A program made the position numbers and the translations under genes. From a virus: a stretch of DNA of 37,470 nt. The stretch lies in IMG/VR virus record IMGVR_UViG_3300033571_008007, positions 1 through 37,470 of that record, one strand, 5' to 3'. The notes beneath the pieces are model-generated. The model saw only the letters and a program-made list of their open reading frames with translations, had not been told where the DNA came from and did no database searches. This document shows, piece by piece, positions 1-37,470 of this stretch. The first letter of the stretch is position 1. Each line of letters opens with the position of its first letter.

Positions 1-15
1 CCCCTTGCCCAGTCC
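1..15. repeat. Terminal direct repeat, left copy
   Basis: The first 15 bases (CCCCTTGCCCAGTCC) are identical to the last 15. This is either a circular sequence cut with a short overlap or a short terminal redundancy. The cut falls in an intergenic hairpin between a Dam-type methyltransferase and a small membrane protein, with genes reading rightward on both sides, so joining the ends gives a sensible continuous operon. Confidence 0.8.
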
Positions 16-3482: not shown

Positions 3483-3650
3483 TTATGGGTATTTCAACCC
3501 GATTTCCAATCTTTTCCGTTTGATTACTTCACAGCACTCTTCAGGCTTTTCAGTCTGACGAACTGAGCAGTGTAAACGGCATTTGGTGCATAACCAAAGT
3601 GGAAAGGCTCCGACTCTGGCAATGTTGTAGTAAGCAGGTGAGATGTCCAT
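3483..3650 (-). CDS. Cysteine-motif mini-protein D (fourth of tandem array)
   Basis: A 55-aa protein with C21-x2-C24-x3-C28-x10-C39 and a proline three residues before the last cysteine, the signature shared by the three genes upstream. The frame is open further upstream, but the ATG at 3650 is chosen because it follows an AGGA ribosome site, starts 7 nt after gene C's stop and gives a protein of the same size class. The C-terminal tail is basic. The four cysteines could bind zinc or an iron-sulfur cluster. Confidence 0.6.
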   Translation of the reverse strand: MDISPAYYNIARVGAFPLWLCTKCRLHCSVRQTEKPEECCEVIKRKRLEIGLKYP

Positions 3651-3657
3651 ACGAGTC

Positions 3658-3876
3658 CTAGATATACGGTAGTTTGAGTTGTCTGTCGTCTTCAGGTTTC
3701 TGGTCTTTAGAACCAAGAATTTCATCCACAAGGATGAAGCATTCCAACAGATTGCAGACACAAAAGTCTGGTTTCTGTGGAAATAAGATACTGCATTTGT
3801 GTTCACAAACACAGCAGACATACAAATTCTGGTCGCTACCAGTTTTTGTAATAACCCAGTCTTCTTTACGCACCAT
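3658..3876 (-). CDS. Cysteine-motif mini-protein C
   Basis: A 72-aa protein, the longest array member, with C21-x2-C24-x3-C28-x10-C39 and the conserved proline three residues before the last cysteine. It has extra cysteines (C22, C41, C46) and a longer acidic C-terminus. The ATG at 3876 overlaps gene B's end by 11 nt and is preceded by GAGGTGG. An open frame on the opposite strand is a shadow. Function unknown. Confidence 0.6.
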   Translation of the reverse strand: MVRKEDWVITKTGSDQNLYVCCVCEHKCSILFPQKPDFCVCNLLECFILVDEILGSKDQKPEDDRQLKLPYI

Positions 3877-24713: not shown

Positions 24714-25044
24714 TCAAATATTTATCAATCGCTGATTCTATCTTCTCTCTATCTTCCACAACGATTGGGGCTACTGCCTGTCCGTGCTTACGGTCAAGGA
24801 TGTCTTTATAAAAACGATAGTCGCCAGCACGGGCTAACTTAATAGCGTTTGATAGCATCTCAACTTCAAGCGTGTCCGGCTCTTTACCATTCAATTTAGC
24901 CAAGTGAATTAAGCCTTCTCTGTATAGAGTAGCGTAATTCTTCTGACCCACTGGGCGACCGTTAGGGTTAGCCGTCTGTCCGGGCTTACAAGGTATAAGA
25001 TTTGCTATTCGCTTATCTCTGTTTTTGTCTTTGTTTTTTGCCAT
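24682..25044 (-). CDS. Terminase small subunit-like protein (DUF5681 motif)
   Basis: A 120-aa basic N-terminal part containing KPGQTANPNGRPVGQKN (about 20-36), the hallmark of DUF5681 proteins often located before terL, followed by helices. Overlapping genes on both sides (40 nt with the ParB-methyltransferase, 32 nt with terL) imply tight coupling. A DNA-recognition role in packaging is likely but not proven. Confidence 0.55.
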   Translation of the reverse strand: MAKNKDKNRDKRIANLIPCKPGQTANPNGRPVGQKNYATLYREGLIHLAKLNGKEPDTLEVEMLSNAIKLARAGDYRFYKDILDRKHGQAVAPIVVEDREKIESAIDKYLNDNTGNNKEK

Positions 25045-26180
25045 ATAATTTCTTTACCATTTAACTTAATATTCTCATTACCTGTGTAGTCAACATAGCG
25101 TTGGACAATCACGTCTACGTATTTTGGGTCTAGTTCCATTCCGTAACATATACGACCTGTTTTTTCAGAGGCTATGAGAGTAGAGCCAGAGCCGAGGAAG
25201 TCATCAATTACTATTCCGCCTGGGTTAGAGCTAATTTTAAGTTCATTAACTATCAATTCAACAGGTTTCATTGTTGGATGTGGTGTTGAATTTTCTCTAC
25301 CAAACTCTAGACTCTTTGAATATGAAACTCCTTGAACTGCATTGTTCCAAATAGCATTTTTTCTTATAGTTAAGAGATATTCTACATCTGGTCTATGTTG
25401 TTCTCCTAAAGGAAGAGCATTTGGTTTCTTCCAAAAAAGGATATTAAAAGCATATTTACATTCTCTAGCCCAATTAAGATAATCTGGAACTAAATCTTTA
25501 TTACAAAATATATAAGCATTCATTCCTCTTTCAAAGTATAAAGGAAGTGTATTTAACCATTCTGCTGGTTCAAAACTTATAATATCTTTTATACTCTCAC
25601 CTATTTTAGCGGCACTCTTTCCTACCCATTGATTAGAACCACCCTCTGCCTCCATCCTATAAGGCGGGTCAGTAAACACCATATCTGCCTTCTTCCCATC
25701 CATAAGACTTGAAACTGCCTCTATTTGCGTGGAATCCCCACATAATACTTTGTGACGACCTAACTCATACAAATCCCCTAATTTAGAGCGACTAGGCACA
25801 TTCTCTGGTATTACATCATCGGCTTCATCAGCCTCTATAAGTAAATCAGCATCAAATCCGGTTAGCCCCACTAGATCATCATCCTCCAATGATTTCAGTT
25901 CATCAATAACGAGCGCCATATCCCATTCACTTTCGTTCAACTTATTATCAGCTAGACGATAAGCATCAGCTTTCTTTTTACTTATATCCAATACTTTTAC
26001 CTCTGGTTCTATACCAAGTAACTTACACGCTTCCCATCTTCCGTGTCCTACTATTATCACACCTTGTTTATCTACAACGATAGGTTGATTCATACCAAAC
26101 TCTTTAATAGAGTTAGCTACTTGTTGTATCTGTTTCTTTGAATGCTTTTTAGCATTTTTTGGATAAGGTTTTATTTCCAT
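25005..26180 (-). CDS. ParB-like domain fused to N6/N4 DNA methyltransferase
   Basis: A 391-aa protein. Residues 1-95 are a ParB/Srx-like nuclease domain with the VIIVGHGRWEAC signature at 41-52. A linker follows, then a methyltransferase with DPPY at 171-174 and AdoMet motif DFLGSGSTL at about 339-347 (beta class order). Such fusions are common in phages beside terminase genes. It is the second gene of the leftward arm; the ATG at 26180 lies immediately after a tRNA-like leader. It may mark DNA against restriction or couple methylation to packaging. Confidence 0.8.
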   Translation of the reverse strand: MEIKPYPKNAKKHSKKQIQQVANSIKEFGMNQPIVVDKQGVIIVGHGRWEACKLLGIEPEVKVLDISKKKADAYRLADNKLNESEWDMALVIDELKSLEDDDLVGLTGFDADLLIEADEADDVIPENVPSRSKLGDLYELGRHKVLCGDSTQIEAVSSLMDGKKADMVFTDPPYRMEAEGGSNQWVGKSAAKIGESIKDIISFEPAEWLNTLPLYFERGMNAYIFCNKDLVPDYLNWARECKYAFNILFWKKPNALPLGEQHRPDVEYLLTIRKNAIWNNAVQGVSYSKSLEFGRENSTPHPTMKPVELIVNELKISSNPGGIVIDDFLGSGSTLIASEKTGRICYGMELDPKYVDVIVQRYVDYTGNENIKLNGKEIIWQKTKTKTEISE

Positions 26181-26257
26181 TTTGGTAGTTGGGAATCGAA
26201 CCCTTATTTTATAACCTGGCGATTATTCAATACCATATCTAACCAATCAAACTATAT
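26181..26257 (-). other. tRNA-like 5' leader of ParB-methyltransferase mRNA
   Basis: From the predicted transcription start (26257) to the ATG, the minus strand can form a closing helix TAGTT/AACTA (26250-26254 with 26186-26190), a hairpin ATAATC-GCCA-GGTTAT and a T-arm mimic GGG-TTCGATT-CCC (26191-26203). It looks like a tRNA gene at first glance, but it has no 7-nt anticodon loop and only a 3-bp T-stem, so it is not a standard tRNA. The leader ends with CCAAAATGG at the start codon. Confidence 0.4.
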
Positions 26258-26263
26258 ATTTGT

Positions 26264-26272
26264 ATTATATCA
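26264..26272 (-). promoter_or_regulatory. Extended -10 promoter for packaging operon
   Basis: Minus strand TGATATAAT (26264-26272) with a weak -35 (TCGAAA-like, 17 bp upstream). Transcription would begin near 26257, the 5' edge of the tRNA-like leader. It overlaps the 3' end region of the upstream small basic gene. Confidence 0.5.
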
Positions 26273-26277
26273 CACTT

Positions 26278-26448
26278 TTAAACTTTTTTCGACCACCTTA
26301 TATTTATTATTCTCCTAGCATACTCTGACCTTTGCTTGGCAGTAGTCTTAGACCATCTAGCTTTCGCCATTTTAGAAGCACGTATTTTACGTTCTTCAAC
26401 ACCTATATTATTCCAATATGACTTCCTAGCTTCCGACATTTTATTCAT
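26278..26448 (-). CDS. Small basic protein with KARWSK motif
   Basis: A 56-aa, strongly basic helical protein containing MAKARWSKTTAKQRSEYARR, a Lys/Arg pattern found in many short phage proteins of unknown function thought to bind DNA. It is the first leftward gene beside the origin. Its ATG coincides with the start predicted from TTGTAA-16-TATTCT (26455-26482), so it may be leaderless. It could act in control at the origin-proximal divergent promoters. Confidence 0.6.
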   Translation of the reverse strand: MNKMSEARKSYWNNIGVEERKIRASKMAKARWSKTTAKQRSEYARRIINIRWSKKV

Positions 26449-26454
26449 ATATAC

Positions 26455-26482
26455 AGAATATCATAATGATACACACTTACAA
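26455..26482 (-). promoter_or_regulatory. Leftward promoter next to origin
   Basis: Minus strand TTGTAA, 16 bp, TATTCT, placing the predicted start at 26448, the ATG itself. The -10 matches the consensus at only four positions, so confidence is moderate. Confidence 0.4.
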
Positions 26483-26520
26483 TATTGACAAGTATGTAGT
26501 AAATATTTGTACATACACAT

Positions 26521-26872
26521 CTGCCATACCTCAGAGGTATGGCAGGAGGTATGGCAGGAGGTATGGCAGACTTTTTATGGCTACACATAAGGGTTTTATC
26601 CCTCCTGCCATACCTACCATACCTTTTTTATATATAAAGAGTTAGTATAGAAATATAAAATATAAAATACCACCGCGGGGGGTATATATAGGAGTTTGGT
26701 ATGGCAGGTATGGCAGATAAGTATGTATTCTTCACTTATACGTTGCTATATAAGGCTTATTTACCTGCCACACCCCCTCTGCCATACCCCCTTATTTTAC
26801 CCATTTTTGCCATACCTATACTCAAAAAATGACCATTTTTTACCTTTTAGGTATGGCAGAAAGTTATCCACA
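26521..26872. other. Replication origin with iterons, AT-rich zone and DnaA box
   Basis: No gene is supported here. Ten exact copies of GGTATGGCA occur: plus strand at 26536, 26548, 26560, 26698, 26707 and 26850, and inverted at 26522, 26606, 26780 and 26808. One-mismatch copies lie at 26615 and 26766. Copies at 26536-26568 are 12 bp apart; those at 26522 and 26536 form an 11-bp-arm palindrome. A stretch at 26624-26668 is nearly all A/T (unwinding region), and a perfect DnaA box lies at 26864-26872. The helicase-primase gene follows at once. Confidence 0.8.
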
Positions 26873-26911
26873 GGGGTACTATTTGCATTAATTTTTCATG
26901 AAGAGTATAAT
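26864..26911 (+). promoter_or_regulatory. Early promoter 1 with upstream DnaA box
   Basis: TTATCCACA (26864-26872), 10 bp, TTGCAT (26883-26888), 17 bp, TATAAT (26906-26911). The predicted start, 26918, is the A of an ATG. It would drive the leader peptide and the replication genes. Two other early promoters share the box and spacing. Confidence 0.8.
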
Positions 26912-26917
26912 GTATGT

Positions 26918-27043
26918 ATGAAACAATTTAGCATTACAAGTTTTAATAATCACCAGCAGTCCTCCCGGAATATTTGCGTAGTAATGCACGTAGTTTCAGT
27001 TCCTGGAGGACTTTTGGTTGTTAATATATCGCAAAATATATGA
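26918..27043 (+). CDS. Leader peptide upstream of helicase-primase
   Basis: A 41-aa ORF starting MKQFSITSF at the predicted transcription start (leaderless). The stop overlaps the primase start (ATGA at 27040-27043). The frame runs open upstream through the iterons, but that part precedes the promoter and is not credible. It spans a long stem-loop (26958-27012), so its translation would open or close that structure. Either a regulatory leader peptide or a small early protein. Confidence 0.5.
   Translation: MKQFSITSFNNHQQSSRNICVVMHVVSVPGGLLVVNISQNI
26958..27012 (+). promoter_or_regulatory. Candidate attenuator hairpin in primase leader
   Basis: AGTCCTCC (26958-26965) pairs perfectly with GGAGGACT (27005-27012). 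After one mismatch GGAA (26967-26970) pairs with TTCC (27000-27003). The 29-nt loop lies within the leader peptide frame. The sequence after it is TTTGGTTGTT, so it could act as an intrinsic terminator. It also hides the only GGAGG upstream of the primase start. Confidence 0.5.
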
Positions 27044-29187
27044 ATAAACTTATAGAAAAATTTGGAGAGGAAAAGAGATGGGTAACTTATAAAATAGTTT
27101 TAAAAGATGGTAAGAAAACTAAAGTACCTTTTACAAAAAATGGAAAAGCTGCGGCTTCTACCAATCCAGATCATTGGTCTACTGTAAAAGAATTAAGAAA
27201 TCTTCCTTTAGGAATTATTTTTACACCGGGACAAACACTCCTTGGAATTGATATTGATCACTGTTTAGAAGGACAAAAAATTGTTCATCCAGAAAAAGAA
27301 GTAATAGAAAAACTTTTAGCTTCCACTAATACTTATACAGAAATTTCACCATCAGGTACTGGTCTACATTTATTTTTAGAAATAACAGAATCATTTAAAT
27401 TAGAAGCGAGTCGTACACACAGTTTGCCGTATGAATTTTATACATCCGGTCGCTACTTCACTGTGACTCAAAATATATATGGTGAAGAAAAAGAAGTAAG
27501 AACTGTTACCCCAGAAGAGGCTATATCTATTCTTAAAATTACTGGATACCCTTGGAAGACTGAAGAAAAGAAAGAAATTAAACCACAAATATCTGCTCCG
27601 ATTGAAATAGATGATCAAAAACTTTTAAAGAAGATGTTTAAATCAAAGAATGGTACGGCCATTCAGTCATTGTATAATGGCGATATTTCAAAATACAATA
27701 ATGATGACTCTTCTGCTGACATGGCGTTATGCACGTTTTTATCTTTTTGGACTGCTTGTAACTTTAATCAAATGGAAAGGATTTGGTTATCATCACCATT
27801 AGGAAGCCGTAGCAAAACCCAGACAAAGGCTGATTATCGTAAAAGAACTATTGATAAGGCGATTGCTGGCTGTAATGAAGTGTATGAAACTCCTAAAATG
27901 AAACAAGAAAAGGTTAATAAAGAATTAGACCTTGAACTTTTATTTACTCTAAACAAAGACGGTGACAAAGTATTTATTCAAAATACCGAGAATATGTGTC
28001 GCATCCTTCGTAAACACCCGGACTTTCAAGGTAGACTTCACTATGATGTGTTTAAAAATACTTTAGAAATATTTAAAAATAATTGTTGGACCGGGATAGA
28101 AGATAATGATTCTGTAAACTATCAGACTAAAATTCAAATACTATTTTCTTGTTTTGCTAAAGTGGGTAAAGATATGGTTTATGATGCTATGATCAAAGTA
28201 GCCAAAGAAAACACTGTAGACTCAGCCAGTGATTATATCCGTTCCTTGCATTGGGATGGTACAGATCGTCTATCATCTTGGTTAACAAAGACTTATGGAA
28301 CACCGAATGATAAATATCACCAAGCTGTTGGTAGTAATTGGCTAAAAGGCCTTGTGAAGCGTATAACCGAGCCAGGATGTAAGTTTGACTATGTTTTAGT
28401 ACTTGAGGGTGAACAAGGCACCAAGAAGTCTACATCTCTTTATATCCTTGGTGGCAACTGGCACGTTGAAACGGCTATGTCTACTGACTCCAAAGACTTC
28501 TTTATGCAGTTCGCAGGCAAAGCTATCGTGGAGTTCTCAGAGGGTGAAACCTTAAGCCGTACTGAAGTTAAGCGTATGAAAGCTATCATCACAATGCAGA
28601 CGGACAAATACCGTCCACCCTATGAGCGTTCCTCACAAGAATTCCCCAGACGTTGCGTATTTGCTATGACTACAAACCAGACTGAGTATCTAAAAGATGA
28701 GACCGGTAACAGACGTTGGCTACCAGTAACTGTGGCCCTACCAGAAGCAAATATTGAATGGTTAGCCGCTAATCGAGATCAATTGTTTGCTGAAGCCTAT
28801 CACCGGGTAGCAAATCTTAAGGAGACTACTTATGATTTTCCTAAAGAAGAAATGCTTGAAGCTCAAGAAAAAAGACGTATTCAAGATGCTAACACCGATC
28901 TTGTGACTGATTGGTACTTTAATACTTTAACTAACTCTCAAAGAGAAGAAGGTATTACTATCCAGCAGGTTTACAAAGTATTGAATGGTAATTGGTCCGG
29001 TAAACCATTAACTAAGTATGAGGAAATGACTATTTCCACTGTGCTAAAGAAATCACTAAAATTATCGAATGAGCGTGTCTCCGTTGGTGGTGCTAGATGT
29101 ACTAAGTGGTTTGATCGTACTGGCCGAACGATTGAACAGGAGGTATTAGAAGACGGTAATGCTGTATTAAGCTCAAACAGATGGTAA
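27040..29187 (+). CDS. Prim-pol / VirE-type helicase-primase
   Basis: A 715-aa replication protein. The N-terminus (about 1-170) is a bifunctional primase-polymerase domain with catalytic DID (71-73) and SPSGTGLHLFL (103-113). The C-terminal half is a VirE/SF3-like ATPase with Walker A GEQGTKKST (457-465), Walker B-like AIVEFSEG (about 495-502) and TTNQ...DETGNRRW (about 548-563). It lies beside the iteron origin and is probably the initiator/helicase that acts there. Its start overlaps the leader peptide stop. Confidence 0.85.
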   Translation: MNKLIEKFGEEKRWVTYKIVLKDGKKTKVPFTKNGKAAASTNPDHWSTVKELRNLPLGIIFTPGQTLLGIDIDHCLEGQKIVHPEKEVIEKLLASTNTYTEISPSGTGLHLFLEITESFKLEASRTHSLPYEFYTSGRYFTVTQNIYGEEKEVRTVTPEEAISILKITGYPWKTEEKKEIKPQISAPIEIDDQKLLKKMFKSKNGTAIQSLYNGDISKYNNDDSSADMALCTFLSFWTACNFNQMERIWLSSPLGSRSKTQTKADYRKRTIDKAIAGCNEVYETPKMKQEKVNKELDLELLFTLNKDGDKVFIQNTENMCRILRKHPDFQGRLHYDVFKNTLEIFKNNCWTGIEDNDSVNYQTKIQILFSCFAKVGKDMVYDAMIKVAKENTVDSASDYIRSLHWDGTDRLSSWLTKTYGTPNDKYHQAVGSNWLKGLVKRITEPGCKFDYVLVLEGEQGTKKSTSLYILGGNWHVETAMSTDSKDFFMQFAGKAIVEFSEGETLSRTEVKRMKAIITMQTDKYRPPYERSSQEFPRRCVFAMTTNQTEYLKDETGNRRWLPVTVALPEANIEWLAANRDQLFAEAYHRVANLKETTYDFPKEEMLEAQEKRRIQDANTDLVTDWYFNTLTNSQREEGITIQQVYKVLNGNWSGKPLTKYEEMTISTVLKKSLKLSNERVSVGGARCTKWFDRTGRTIEQEVLEDGNAVLSSNRW

Positions 29188-30086
29188 ATTTTATAGATAA
29201 AATAGAAGGTAAATATAGGGGACCTGTAATAAATATAATTCTAGATGGTATAAGAAGTTTTGATGGTAAATGTAATTCGTCTGAAGTAATTGAGTGGGTA
29301 CGAGAAGATTTAAAAAGGCGTAAAAAATATGGACTACCTAATTACCTCAAAATAGTTAAACAAAACTTAGATGAAGAAGAAATGCATATATTTATTAATG
29401 AATATATTGCCTATCAAAATCTTCCTTACGAACAAAGACAACGAGTAAAACAAATTAAAATAAATTCCAAACAAATGCAAAAAAAACTAATTAAAGACAT
29501 TTTTAATAATCAACGACCTCTATCATGGTCTGCTATTTCGTCATGGAATTATTCTAAAGAGGACTGGGCAAAAAAATATATAGATGGTGAAGTTCCAAAA
29601 TCTAGTAAGGAAATGGACTGGGGTAAAAAAATTGGTAAACTCTTAGAGACTGATCCTACCTATTTACCACAAGTCCCACGACATTCTAAAATGGAACATA
29701 AGTTCAGTGTCAATTTATCTGGTATCCCCCTTGTAGGTTATGCGGATTCTTTTTGTGATAAGAGCCATAATAAGTTACTCGAATTTAAGACTGGTAAAAA
29801 AGCCTGGGATCAAAAACGTACAGATGAACATGGTCAGATCACAATGTACTGTTTAATGAATTATATTACTAATAAAATCAAACCAGAGGATATGGATATT
29901 GCTCTTGTCTGGCTCCCTACACAAGATAACGGAGACTTCTCCATCTCCTTTGTCGAACCGATTGAAGACCACATTCAAATCTTTAAAACTAAACGCACCA
30001 TGCAAGACATCCTTCTCTTCGCCTCTGAAATAAAAAAGATTTATAAACAAATGGAGGAATATGTAAAAAATTATGAAAAAAATTAA
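29181..30086 (+). CDS. PD-(D/E)XK nuclease, RecB/Cas4-like
   Basis: A 301-aa protein. Catalytic-type residues are in order: GYAD (D189), EFK (E201, K203) and Q219 in HGQITMY. SWSAISSW at about 115-122 is a typical beginning of PF12705-type exonucleases. The N-terminal ~100 residues are a separate helical part. It overlaps the primase by 7 nt and the next gene by 14 nt. Probably a recombination/replication exonuclease working with the downstream ssDNA-binding-like protein. Confidence 0.75.
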   Translation: MVNFIDKIEGKYRGPVINIILDGIRSFDGKCNSSEVIEWVREDLKRRKKYGLPNYLKIVKQNLDEEEMHIFINEYIAYQNLPYEQRQRVKQIKINSKQMQKKLIKDIFNNQRPLSWSAISSWNYSKEDWAKKYIDGEVPKSSKEMDWGKKIGKLLETDPTYLPQVPRHSKMEHKFSVNLSGIPLVGYADSFCDKSHNKLLEFKTGKKAWDQKRTDEHGQITMYCLMNYITNKIKPEDMDIALVWLPTQDNGDFSISFVEPIEDHIQIFKTKRTMQDILLFASEIKKIYKQMEEYVKNYEKN

Positions 30087-31125
30087 AGTATTATCATTAT
30101 TTGACGGTATATCAGTGGCCCAGCAAGCCCTAAAAGAATTAGGGTATGATGTGGAGTATTACGCTTCCGAGATAGATAAGTATGCTAGTCAGATTACACA
30201 GAAGAATCATCCGAAGACTATTCAAGTTGGTAGCGTAGTTGGTTTGCAACCATTATTCAAGCCAGATCTCCTCATCGGTGGCTCACCTTGCCAAGACCTA
30301 TCAATCGCCAAGAAGAATCGTCAAGGCTTAGATGGTGCAAGGTCGGGTCTATTCTGGGAGTATGTTCGTATCTTGAAAGAAGTAAAGCCGAAATACTTCG
30401 TGCTTGAAAATGTAAACTCTATGCCAAAGGAAGCAAAGGCAATTATCACCGAAGCTCTTGGTGTTGAACCAATAATGATAAATGCCTCCCTTGTTTCAGC
30501 GCAGAACCGAAAGAGATTGTTTTGGACAAATATACCGAATGTTACCTTGCCAAAAGACAGGGGGATATTGTTGAAAGATATTTTGGAGGAGAATGTTGAT
30601 GAGAAATATAAGGTAAATATTTCTCCGAAGTATGGACTAAAAGGATTGTGCGAAGCAAACGATAAAGCTAAAGCGGTTACTGCTTCTTGTTATAAAGGTT
30701 ACGGTAATGATGGAGTTTCAATTATTCGTGTAGGGAAAATCGGCAAAGGTGGTCAAGGTGATAGAATCTACTCTCCAGAAGGCAAGTCGGTCGGTCTATC
30801 AGCTCTCGGTGGTGGTCGTGGGGCAAAGACGGGGTTGTATTGTATTGGAAACATCTATGCTAAAAAAGGACAAGCTGGAAATGTTTATGATGTGAATGGA
30901 AAATCTGCCACTATTAGTTGTGCTGGTCGCGGTGGTGCTGATAACGCTGGTCTTTATCAAGCTGATTCCATAATCCGCAAACTTACCCCAATAGAATGTG
31001 AACGCCTGCAATCTCTCCCAGATAATTACACTGAAGGAATAAGCAACAGTCAGAGATATAAGTGTTTAGGCAATGCGTTTAATAAGGAGGTGGTCAAACA
31101 TATTTTGAAAAAAATGGCTAACTAG
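30073..31125 (+). CDS. C5-cytosine DNA methyltransferase
   Basis: A 350-aa protein with all main motifs: motif I (LSLFDGISVAQQAL, 7-20), catalytic PCQ (72-74), ENV (112-114) and motif VIII QNRKR (144-148), then a variable Gly-rich recognition region with repeated GKS-type segments (about 215-300). C-terminal motifs IX/X are present (RKLTPIECERLQSLPD and KCLGNAFNKEVV). Complete and probably active. A GGAGG lies upstream within the preceding frame. Likely anti-restriction. Confidence 0.9.
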   Translation: MKKIKVLSLFDGISVAQQALKELGYDVEYYASEIDKYASQITQKNHPKTIQVGSVVGLQPLFKPDLLIGGSPCQDLSIAKKNRQGLDGARSGLFWEYVRILKEVKPKYFVLENVNSMPKEAKAIITEALGVEPIMINASLVSAQNRKRLFWTNIPNVTLPKDRGILLKDILEENVDEKYKVNISPKYGLKGLCEANDKAKAVTASCYKGYGNDGVSIIRVGKIGKGGQGDRIYSPEGKSVGLSALGGGRGAKTGLYCIGNIYAKKGQAGNVYDVNGKSATISCAGRGGADNAGLYQADSIIRKLTPIECERLQSLPDNYTEGISNSQRYKCLGNAFNKEVVKHILKKMAN

Positions 31126-36712: not shown

Positions 36713-37453
36713 ATGAAATATGTAGGTTCAAAAAATAGACACTCCAAAGAGATTTTACAGGCCATTACTACTGAATGTGGCGGTATGTCTGGTGTTGGTA
36801 AATATCAAAATTGGATTGAGCCGTTTGTTGGTGGTGCAAATATGATAGATAAAGTTTATGGGTTTATTAAATATGGTAGTGATGTAAATCCTTTCTTAAT
36901 ATCAATGTTTCAGGCCGTTCAAAAAGGTTGGAAACCCCCAGAAGATATAGACGAGGAAACATATAATTTATGTAAAGAAAACTCCAAGTTATGTTGTGGT
37001 GCTACATTAGAAGAAAAGGCACTAATTGGTTTTGTTGGTATTGGATGTTCTTATTCTGGCAAGTGGTTTGGTGGGTATGCTAGGGGAAATGCAAATAACG
37101 GACAACCAAGAAATTACTGCAAAGAAAGCAGGGATAATCTTTTGAAACAGACAAAACACATAAAAGATGTAAAATTTATTTGTTCCGACTACCAAGCTCT
37201 AACAATACCAATTACACCATCAATAATTTATTGCGACCCTCCGTATCAAGATACAACAAAATACCACGACTCAATACGACATAAAGAGTTCTGGAATTGG
37301 TGCAATAATTGGGTAGAACGTGGAAATAAAGTATTTGTTAGTGAATACAACGCCCCAGAAGGCTGGAGATGTATTTGGGAAAAGGTTGTCAATAGTTCGC
37401 TCACGAAAGAAACTGGAAGCAAAAAGGCGACTGAAAAGTTATTTACTAAGTAG
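36713..37453 (+). CDS. dam: Dam-type (D12 class) N6-adenine DNA methyltransferase
   Basis: A 246-aa protein. MKYVGSK at the N-terminus, EPFVGGANM (37-44, AdoMet motif) and catalytic DPPY (175-178) in alpha/D12 order. It is slightly short but motif-complete, with the recognition domain between the two. Stop TAG lies at 37451-37453, just before the terminal repeat. Target unknown (GATC is common in this class). Likely protects phage DNA from host restriction. Confidence 0.85.
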   Translation: MKYVGSKNRHSKEILQAITTECGGMSGVGKYQNWIEPFVGGANMIDKVYGFIKYGSDVNPFLISMFQAVQKGWKPPEDIDEETYNLCKENSKLCCGATLEEKALIGFVGIGCSYSGKWFGGYARGNANNGQPRNYCKESRDNLLKQTKHIKDVKFICSDYQALTIPITPSIIYCDPPYQDTTKYHDSIRHKEFWNWCNNWVERGNKVFVSEYNAPEGWRCIWEKVVNSSLTKETGSKKATEKLFTK

Positions 37454-37455
37454 CC

Positions 37456-37470
37456 CCCCTTGCCCAGTCC
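37456..37470. repeat. Terminal direct repeat, right copy
   Basis: Identical to 1-15, and preceded here by two further C residues after the Dam-type gene's stop. It shows the contig ends overlap or that the ends are redundant. Confidence 0.8.

Follow-up and report, generated by a model that had tools for sequence, protein, structure and literature searches.

The window analysed here comprises the 37,470 nucleotides of the IMG/VR virus record IMGVR_UViG_3300033571_008007. It contains an array of short repeats, flanked by a leftward gene starting at 26180 (-) and a rightward gene at 27040-29187 (+). Ten exact copies of the 9-mer GGTATGGCA were counted in the window, six on the plus and four on the minus strand, and all of them are confined to 26522-26858. 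In dinucleotide shuffles of the whole window this word occurred 0.12 times on average and twice at most. A de novo search of all 8-mers, with no word preset, gave ten mixed-strand copies within 400 bp; 40 Markov shuffles reached three to four. Allowing one mismatch added GGTATGGTA at 26615-26623 (-) and GGTGTGGCA at 26766-26774 (-), so that the array consists of twelve sites. The variant GGTGTGGCA recurs as a regular form in the relatives L105 and L254. The first-pass annotation of this DNA had described at least ten exact sites in both orientations with 9- and 12-bp spacings, and both statements were confirmed, the site number being far above that of the shuffles.

On the left side of the array, exact sites are located at 26522-26530 (-, outer left), 26536-26544 (+), 26548-26556 (+), 26560-26568 (+) and 26606-26614 (-). 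The last of these is abutted by the GGTATGGTA variant and forms with it the left core tandem. The right core tandem consists of the exact sites 26698-26706 (+) and 26707-26715 (+), followed by the GGTGTGGCA variant and by exact sites at 26780-26788 (-), 26808-26816 (-) and 26850-26858 (+, outer right). Read in order, the orientations are - + + + - - on the left and + + - - - + on the right. Thus, the twelve sites form a mirror image about the 74-bp spacer between the core tandems, which is exact for the orientations and not for all spacings. This symmetry had been missed before. Both inner pairs are contiguous tandems with a 9-bp step and point away from the spacer. With 73% AT the spacer (26624-26697) is a candidate melting site; the adjacent stretch reported earlier is therefore AT-rich, but not AT-only. 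The palindrome at 26521-26545 is made up of two inverted iterons. Its arms measure 12 bp (26521-26532 and 26534-26545) with 1 bp between them, instead of the 11 bp first given.

From the end of the array to the start of the rightward gene there are 182 bp, the array being 5' of this gene. This leader holds a sigma-70-like promoter match for the replication gene at 26882-26911 (+; TTTGCA-18-TATAAT, 10/12), in a region whose number of promoter-like sites is not above that of shuffles. Between promoter and start codon a stable hairpin is found at 26947-27023 (+), the structure of which is kept in relatives. Strong hairpins just 5' of the initiator start codon were observed at seven loci including the window, with z values of -3.4 to -9.8. 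The other six are L009 (3900-3990), L010 (3895-3985), L011 (3920-3990), L107 (2720-2810), L080 (6370-6460) and L135 (4915-4990). They follow a TATAAT-like box in the 5' leader and differ in sequence, which gives the impression of a conserved structure.

On the other side of the array, the gene at 25005-26180 encodes an N6/N4 methylase to which a ParB N-terminal domain is fused. It is one of four DNA methyltransferase genes in this 37-kb phage, the others being located at 213-1250, 30073-31125 and 36713-37453. Directly before its start codon, the minus strand at 26181-26250 resembles the 3' half of a tRNA (GGGTTCGATTCCCAACTACCA); no call was made for this stretch by ARAGORN and Rfam. The Rfam scan of the window gave no match.

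The rightward gene encodes the candidate initiator P0001 with 715 amino acids. Its description as a prim-pol/helicase gene proved right. In order, it contains a Prim-Pol domain (PF09250), an NrS-1 HBD (PF22763) and a VapE-like helicase (PF05272, E 1.9e-67), followed by a predicted C-terminal winged helix. Prim-Pol and HBD preceding an SF3 ring domain correspond to the order of the NrS-1 type, and the SF3/AAA+ helicase is of the Pri-Rep kind known from SaPIs and PICIs. The AlphaFold2 model has a mean pLDDT of 78 with a poorly modelled N-terminal domain. For residues 619-691 (28894-29112, +) it predicts the H-H-H-S-S order of a winged helix at a pLDDT near 85, which makes this domain the candidate iteron reader. 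The best PDB match of the model was PriRep1 with dsDNA (7pds; Z 32.3, 394 residues, 24% identity), which we take to be a SaPI initiator. The alignment spans residues 295-700 of P0001 and includes part of the predicted winged helix. Next in rank were the NrS-1 polymerase (N300 and CTR structures) and the SaPI5 primase-helicase. The N-terminus matches the NrS-1 prim-pol with about 30% identity to 6a9w and 7rr4.

Two further features had been put forward in connection with an origin, a DnaA box and a GC-skew check. The DnaA-box-like TTATCCACA is present at 26864-26872 (+), but it is not above chance and so gives no evidence for an origin. Five matches of TTATNCACA were counted in the window against 2.3 expected, and 8 of 100 shuffles did as well. 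Because of this chance level, and because a DnaA box is close to the array in just 7 of 62 lineages, it was rejected as a conserved part of the origin. The minimum of the cumulative GC skew falls into the bin 26001-27000. The opposite flip is found near 2 kb, where genes converge, and not half a genome away. Since the direction of the genes changes there as well, the flip of the skew at the array decides nothing.

VapE relatives were fetched from viral contigs and named phages, and the surroundings of each gene were searched for 8-mers of any sequence that recur on both strands. Arrays above their own shuffles were found in 26 of 34 non-redundant lineages. In this set, to which the iteron word contributed some loci, the centre of the array is no more than 600 bp from an end of a VapE gene in 21 of the 26 (expectation 6.8, p 1e-8). 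In a set compiled by protein only, mixed-strand arrays with at least four copies were detected at 22 of 37 VapE flanks, compared with 4 of 72 control ORFs drawn from the same contigs (p 1e-9). No array reached this threshold in the other 15 lineages, a number that may comprise fragments and degenerate iterons as well as cases of true absence. None was found at the VapE genes of TCUEAP1, BC669P2 and Javan100.

The location of the array relative to the VapE gene is upstream, directly downstream or, for L009 and L010, about 3 kb upstream. In 112 of 127 cases it lies directly 3' of the gene or over its last codons (e.g. L105, L035, L104). With its position varying in this manner, the array is tied to the protein rather than to a promoter. 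VapE is also the gene beside the array at short loci and in helicase-only forms (L080, L107, L029).

The iteron words differ between the lineages. In the closest relative L009, with 65% protein identity, the layout is retained but the word is GGTATGCAA and not GGTATGGCA; the array is situated about 2.7 kb upstream of the gene. L104 and L105, with 25-26% identity, have exactly GGTATGGCA, and L011 has GCTATGGCA. For many prophages among the fetched relatives the iteron is GGTGGGACA or GTAGGACA. Arrays of the same design as in the window were identified in APSE-2 (GGTTGTTAC), YeP5 (GGTTGTCTA), Haddon (GTGGGACAG), 2638A (AAGGGACG) and RcAqua (AGGGTGAGA); phiSa2wa_st30 and ACF1 possess arrays, too.

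The arrays share a geometry of outward-facing tandem sites around a spacer of 60-120 bp. Of 28 lineages not selected for geometry (L009-L213, L354-L363 and the window, with the loci from the DNA core pattern left out), 27 have left-hand and right-hand sites that point away from each other across the spacer. When the words are read outwards from the spacer, those of most lineages align as (A)GGT..GG.CA-like. Neighbouring sites on the same strand are mostly 9 bp apart; for opposite strands the distances cluster near 20, 35-39 and 44-46 bp. The AT content of the spacer was above that of its own locus in about 23 of the 28 lineages. An AT-rich spacer was nevertheless rejected as a defining part, as it fails in the GGTATGGAA group. 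In these loci (L267, L255, L155 and others), whose named hosts are mostly Betaproteobacteria, the spacer is often GC-rich, with an AT fraction of 0.19-0.45 in many of them. The melting site of this group may lie elsewhere than in the spacer.

Furthermore, a search was carried out with the pattern CCATACC-N60..90-GGTRTGG-N1..3-GGTRTGG, which contains no protein information. It matched 70 viral contigs, and a VapE homologue adjoins the match in 59 of them (57 of 64 for matches with at least four sites). On 80 genome contigs VapE was found beside 16 of 19 matches with at least eight sites and beside none of the 50 with only the three required sites. The VapE-linked matches belong mostly to Betaproteobacteria (Nitrosomonas, Methylobacillus, Dechloromonas). 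Among the exceptions, the array adjoins a primase-helicase-like protein (phrog_21086/phrog_35358) in L016 and L335 and a DUF5906 protein in L072. These GGTATGG arrays are located just 3' of the respective genes, at 3514-3785, 943-1043 and 1769-1877. A looser pair pattern also matched single-strand clusters (L077, L085, L091 and others), which were set aside as coding repeats.

Several known systems resemble this arrangement. The rep-ori modules of SaPIs and PICIs (PriRep1, SaPI5 Rep, EcCICFT073 Pri-Rep) likewise combine an SF3/AAA+ initiator helicase linked to a primase domain with short iterons beside the initiator gene and with two iteron sets around an AT-rich spacer (PMC6092414). A plasmid with pri-rep-ori of an E. 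coli PICI was maintained; rep was required, and loss of ori reduced maintenance (PMC6092414). Unlike these satellites, which use the capsid of a helper phage, the phage of the window encodes a TerL-like and a head protein itself. Its array is 5' of the gene, whereas the SaPI and PICI origins are immediately 3', and its initiator has an archaeo-eukaryotic Prim-Pol N-terminus of the NrS-1 type and the iteron GGTATGGCA. Phage P4 with alpha and the type 1 repeats of crr and ori (GGTGAACA) also has a primase-helicase beside GGT-starting iterons of 8-10 bp in both orientations. Its crr is annotated just 3' of alpha and contains contiguous GGTGAACA tandems, with inverted sites about 43 bp away. However, P4 has a separate ori and crr, the latter a 120-bp direct repeat, and no outward-facing pair around a spacer, whereas the window has a single array with another iteron.

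The NrS-1 primase-polymerase shares with P0001 the N-terminal Prim-Pol and HBD (PF22763) and the C-terminal SF3 ring. For its Tail domain a novel fold was reported, and the origin of the phage is a guess based on just two 8-nt sites (PMC7102993). Cch2 of SCCmec is a self-loading 3'-5' helicase whose C-terminal domain binds direct repeats 3' of the gene (PMC7581432). It differs from the window in its three short AAGTG iterons, its separate polymerase-primase and its location on a chromosome-cassette element. Iteron plasmids of the RepA type have tandem iterons beside the initiator gene and AT-rich DNA as well. In the window, however, the initiator itself is the helicase and DnaA boxes are not significant; no RepA-like initiator was seen there, with the short ORFs searched in part. 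The term plasmid-like, used for this organisation at first, is thus imprecise. The design is that of the self-loading helicase replicons of SaPIs and PICIs and partly of P4, and not that of RepA/DnaA iteron plasmids.

Taken together, the array is very probably the replication origin of this phage, with iterons read by the adjacent Prim-Pol/VapE protein P0001. The comparison of lineages and the fold match to PriRep1 strongly support this core of the initial proposal, but not its plasmid-like and podovirus parts. The reader domain is most likely the C-terminal winged helix, by analogy with SaPI Rep and SCCmec Cch2, which read iterons by the C-terminal domain (PMC7581432). Analogy is the basis here because iteron similarity tracks the CTD no more than the core: in partial Mantel tests of iteron against protein similarity, 0.16 (p 0.017) was obtained for the CTD and 0.22 (p 0.006) for the helicase core. 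Coevolution of the iterons specifically with the CTD was therefore rejected.

For initiation, we propose that P0001 binds the GGTATGGCA iterons, most likely via the winged helix, and that two oligomers, probably hexamers, would form back-to-back on the tandem pairs 26606-26623 and 26698-26715. The inverted outer sites may assist this assembly. Between the assemblies the spacer would melt; it is AT-rich here, like that of E. coli PICIs (PMC6092414). Each SF3 ring could then load itself and the forks would proceed both ways, bidirectional forks being suggested by the mirror symmetry. According to family knowledge, they would be primed by the Prim-Pol domain of the same protein.

Alternatively, the array could be an operator by which a phage regulator or P0001 controls the two divergent operons starting on either side. 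Initiators of iteron replicons often autoregulate, and the location between divergent genes, just upstream of the promoter-like site, would suit this function. An operator does not require a fixed outward-facing geometry around a spacer, however, and the arrays of most relatives (the 112 of 127 mentioned above) have no divergent promoter. As a substitute for the origin it is unlikely; a second, regulatory role of the array is plausible, given its position 5' of the gene and beside the promoter-like site.

It is also conceivable that the array is an origin whose iterons are read by a host factor or another phage protein, with VapE recruited later. The coevolution result, not specific for the CTD, would agree with this, as would the three pattern matches without VapE (L016, L335, L072), which adjoin another primase-helicase family. 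Against it, VapE repeatedly adjoins the arrays, even in the short and helicase-only loci, direct iteron binding is known for SaPI Rep and Cch2 (PMC7581432), and the enrichment of DnaA boxes is too low for DnaA as the reader. We consider a separate reader very unlikely. A further reading is that of repeats of another kind, namely in coding sequence, for packaging or for partition, or of mere chance. Single-strand clusters as expected from coding repeats did occur among the matches of the loose pair pattern. The array of the window, however, is mixed-strand, mirror-symmetric and outside the main genes, the shuffles exclude chance, and arrays track the replication helicase and not other genes of the same contigs. 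Such an explanation has hardly any probability left.

The working principle of an origin read by P0001 is already known from SaPI and PICI satellites and in part from P4. The spread, the common motif and the fixed geometry in phages appear to be undescribed; a literature search for the 9-mer, for origins of VapE phages and for the shared geometry found no description among the openly accessible papers searched. To our knowledge, origins have been described for a minority of phages, and the proposal for NrS-1 is limited to two 8-nt sites (PMC7102993). The chances seem evenly balanced that phage SF3 initiators share one origin grammar, across VapE proteins with 25% identity and other primase-helicases (phrog_21086 in L016 and L335, DUF5906 in L072), and that DNA alone locates origins and initiators. 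This grammar would consist of contiguous tandem (A)GGTnnGGnCA-like iterons in an outward-facing pair around a spacer of 60-120 bp, with outer inverted sites peaking at 35-39 and about 45 bp. The DNA-only rule points to origin and initiator together, both for uncultured phages and, among the named ones, for Pseudomonas phage Haddon, YeP5, 2638A and RcAqua. Should it hold, origins with self-loading helicases would no longer be confined to a few satellites but would occur across much of phage diversity. The recognition code between protein and DNA would then be open to study via natural pairs, e.g. GGTATGGCA and GGTATGCAA at 65% protein identity.

With regard to the virus itself, the scans of the window gave weak TerL and major-head matches for genes of the left arm and a weak fibre match. 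No portal or tail-type call and no other podovirus hallmark was obtained in these scans; the assignment to podoviruses is thus neither confirmed nor excluded. Of the 28 main genes, 26 have no Shine-Dalgarno-like motif, and their upstream regions are A/T-rich, which hints at a host group not relying on such motifs. The ends of the window (1-15 and 37456-37470) have the 15-mer CCCCTTGCCCAGTCC in common, which suggests a contig that can be closed to a complete genome, either circular or with terminal redundancy.
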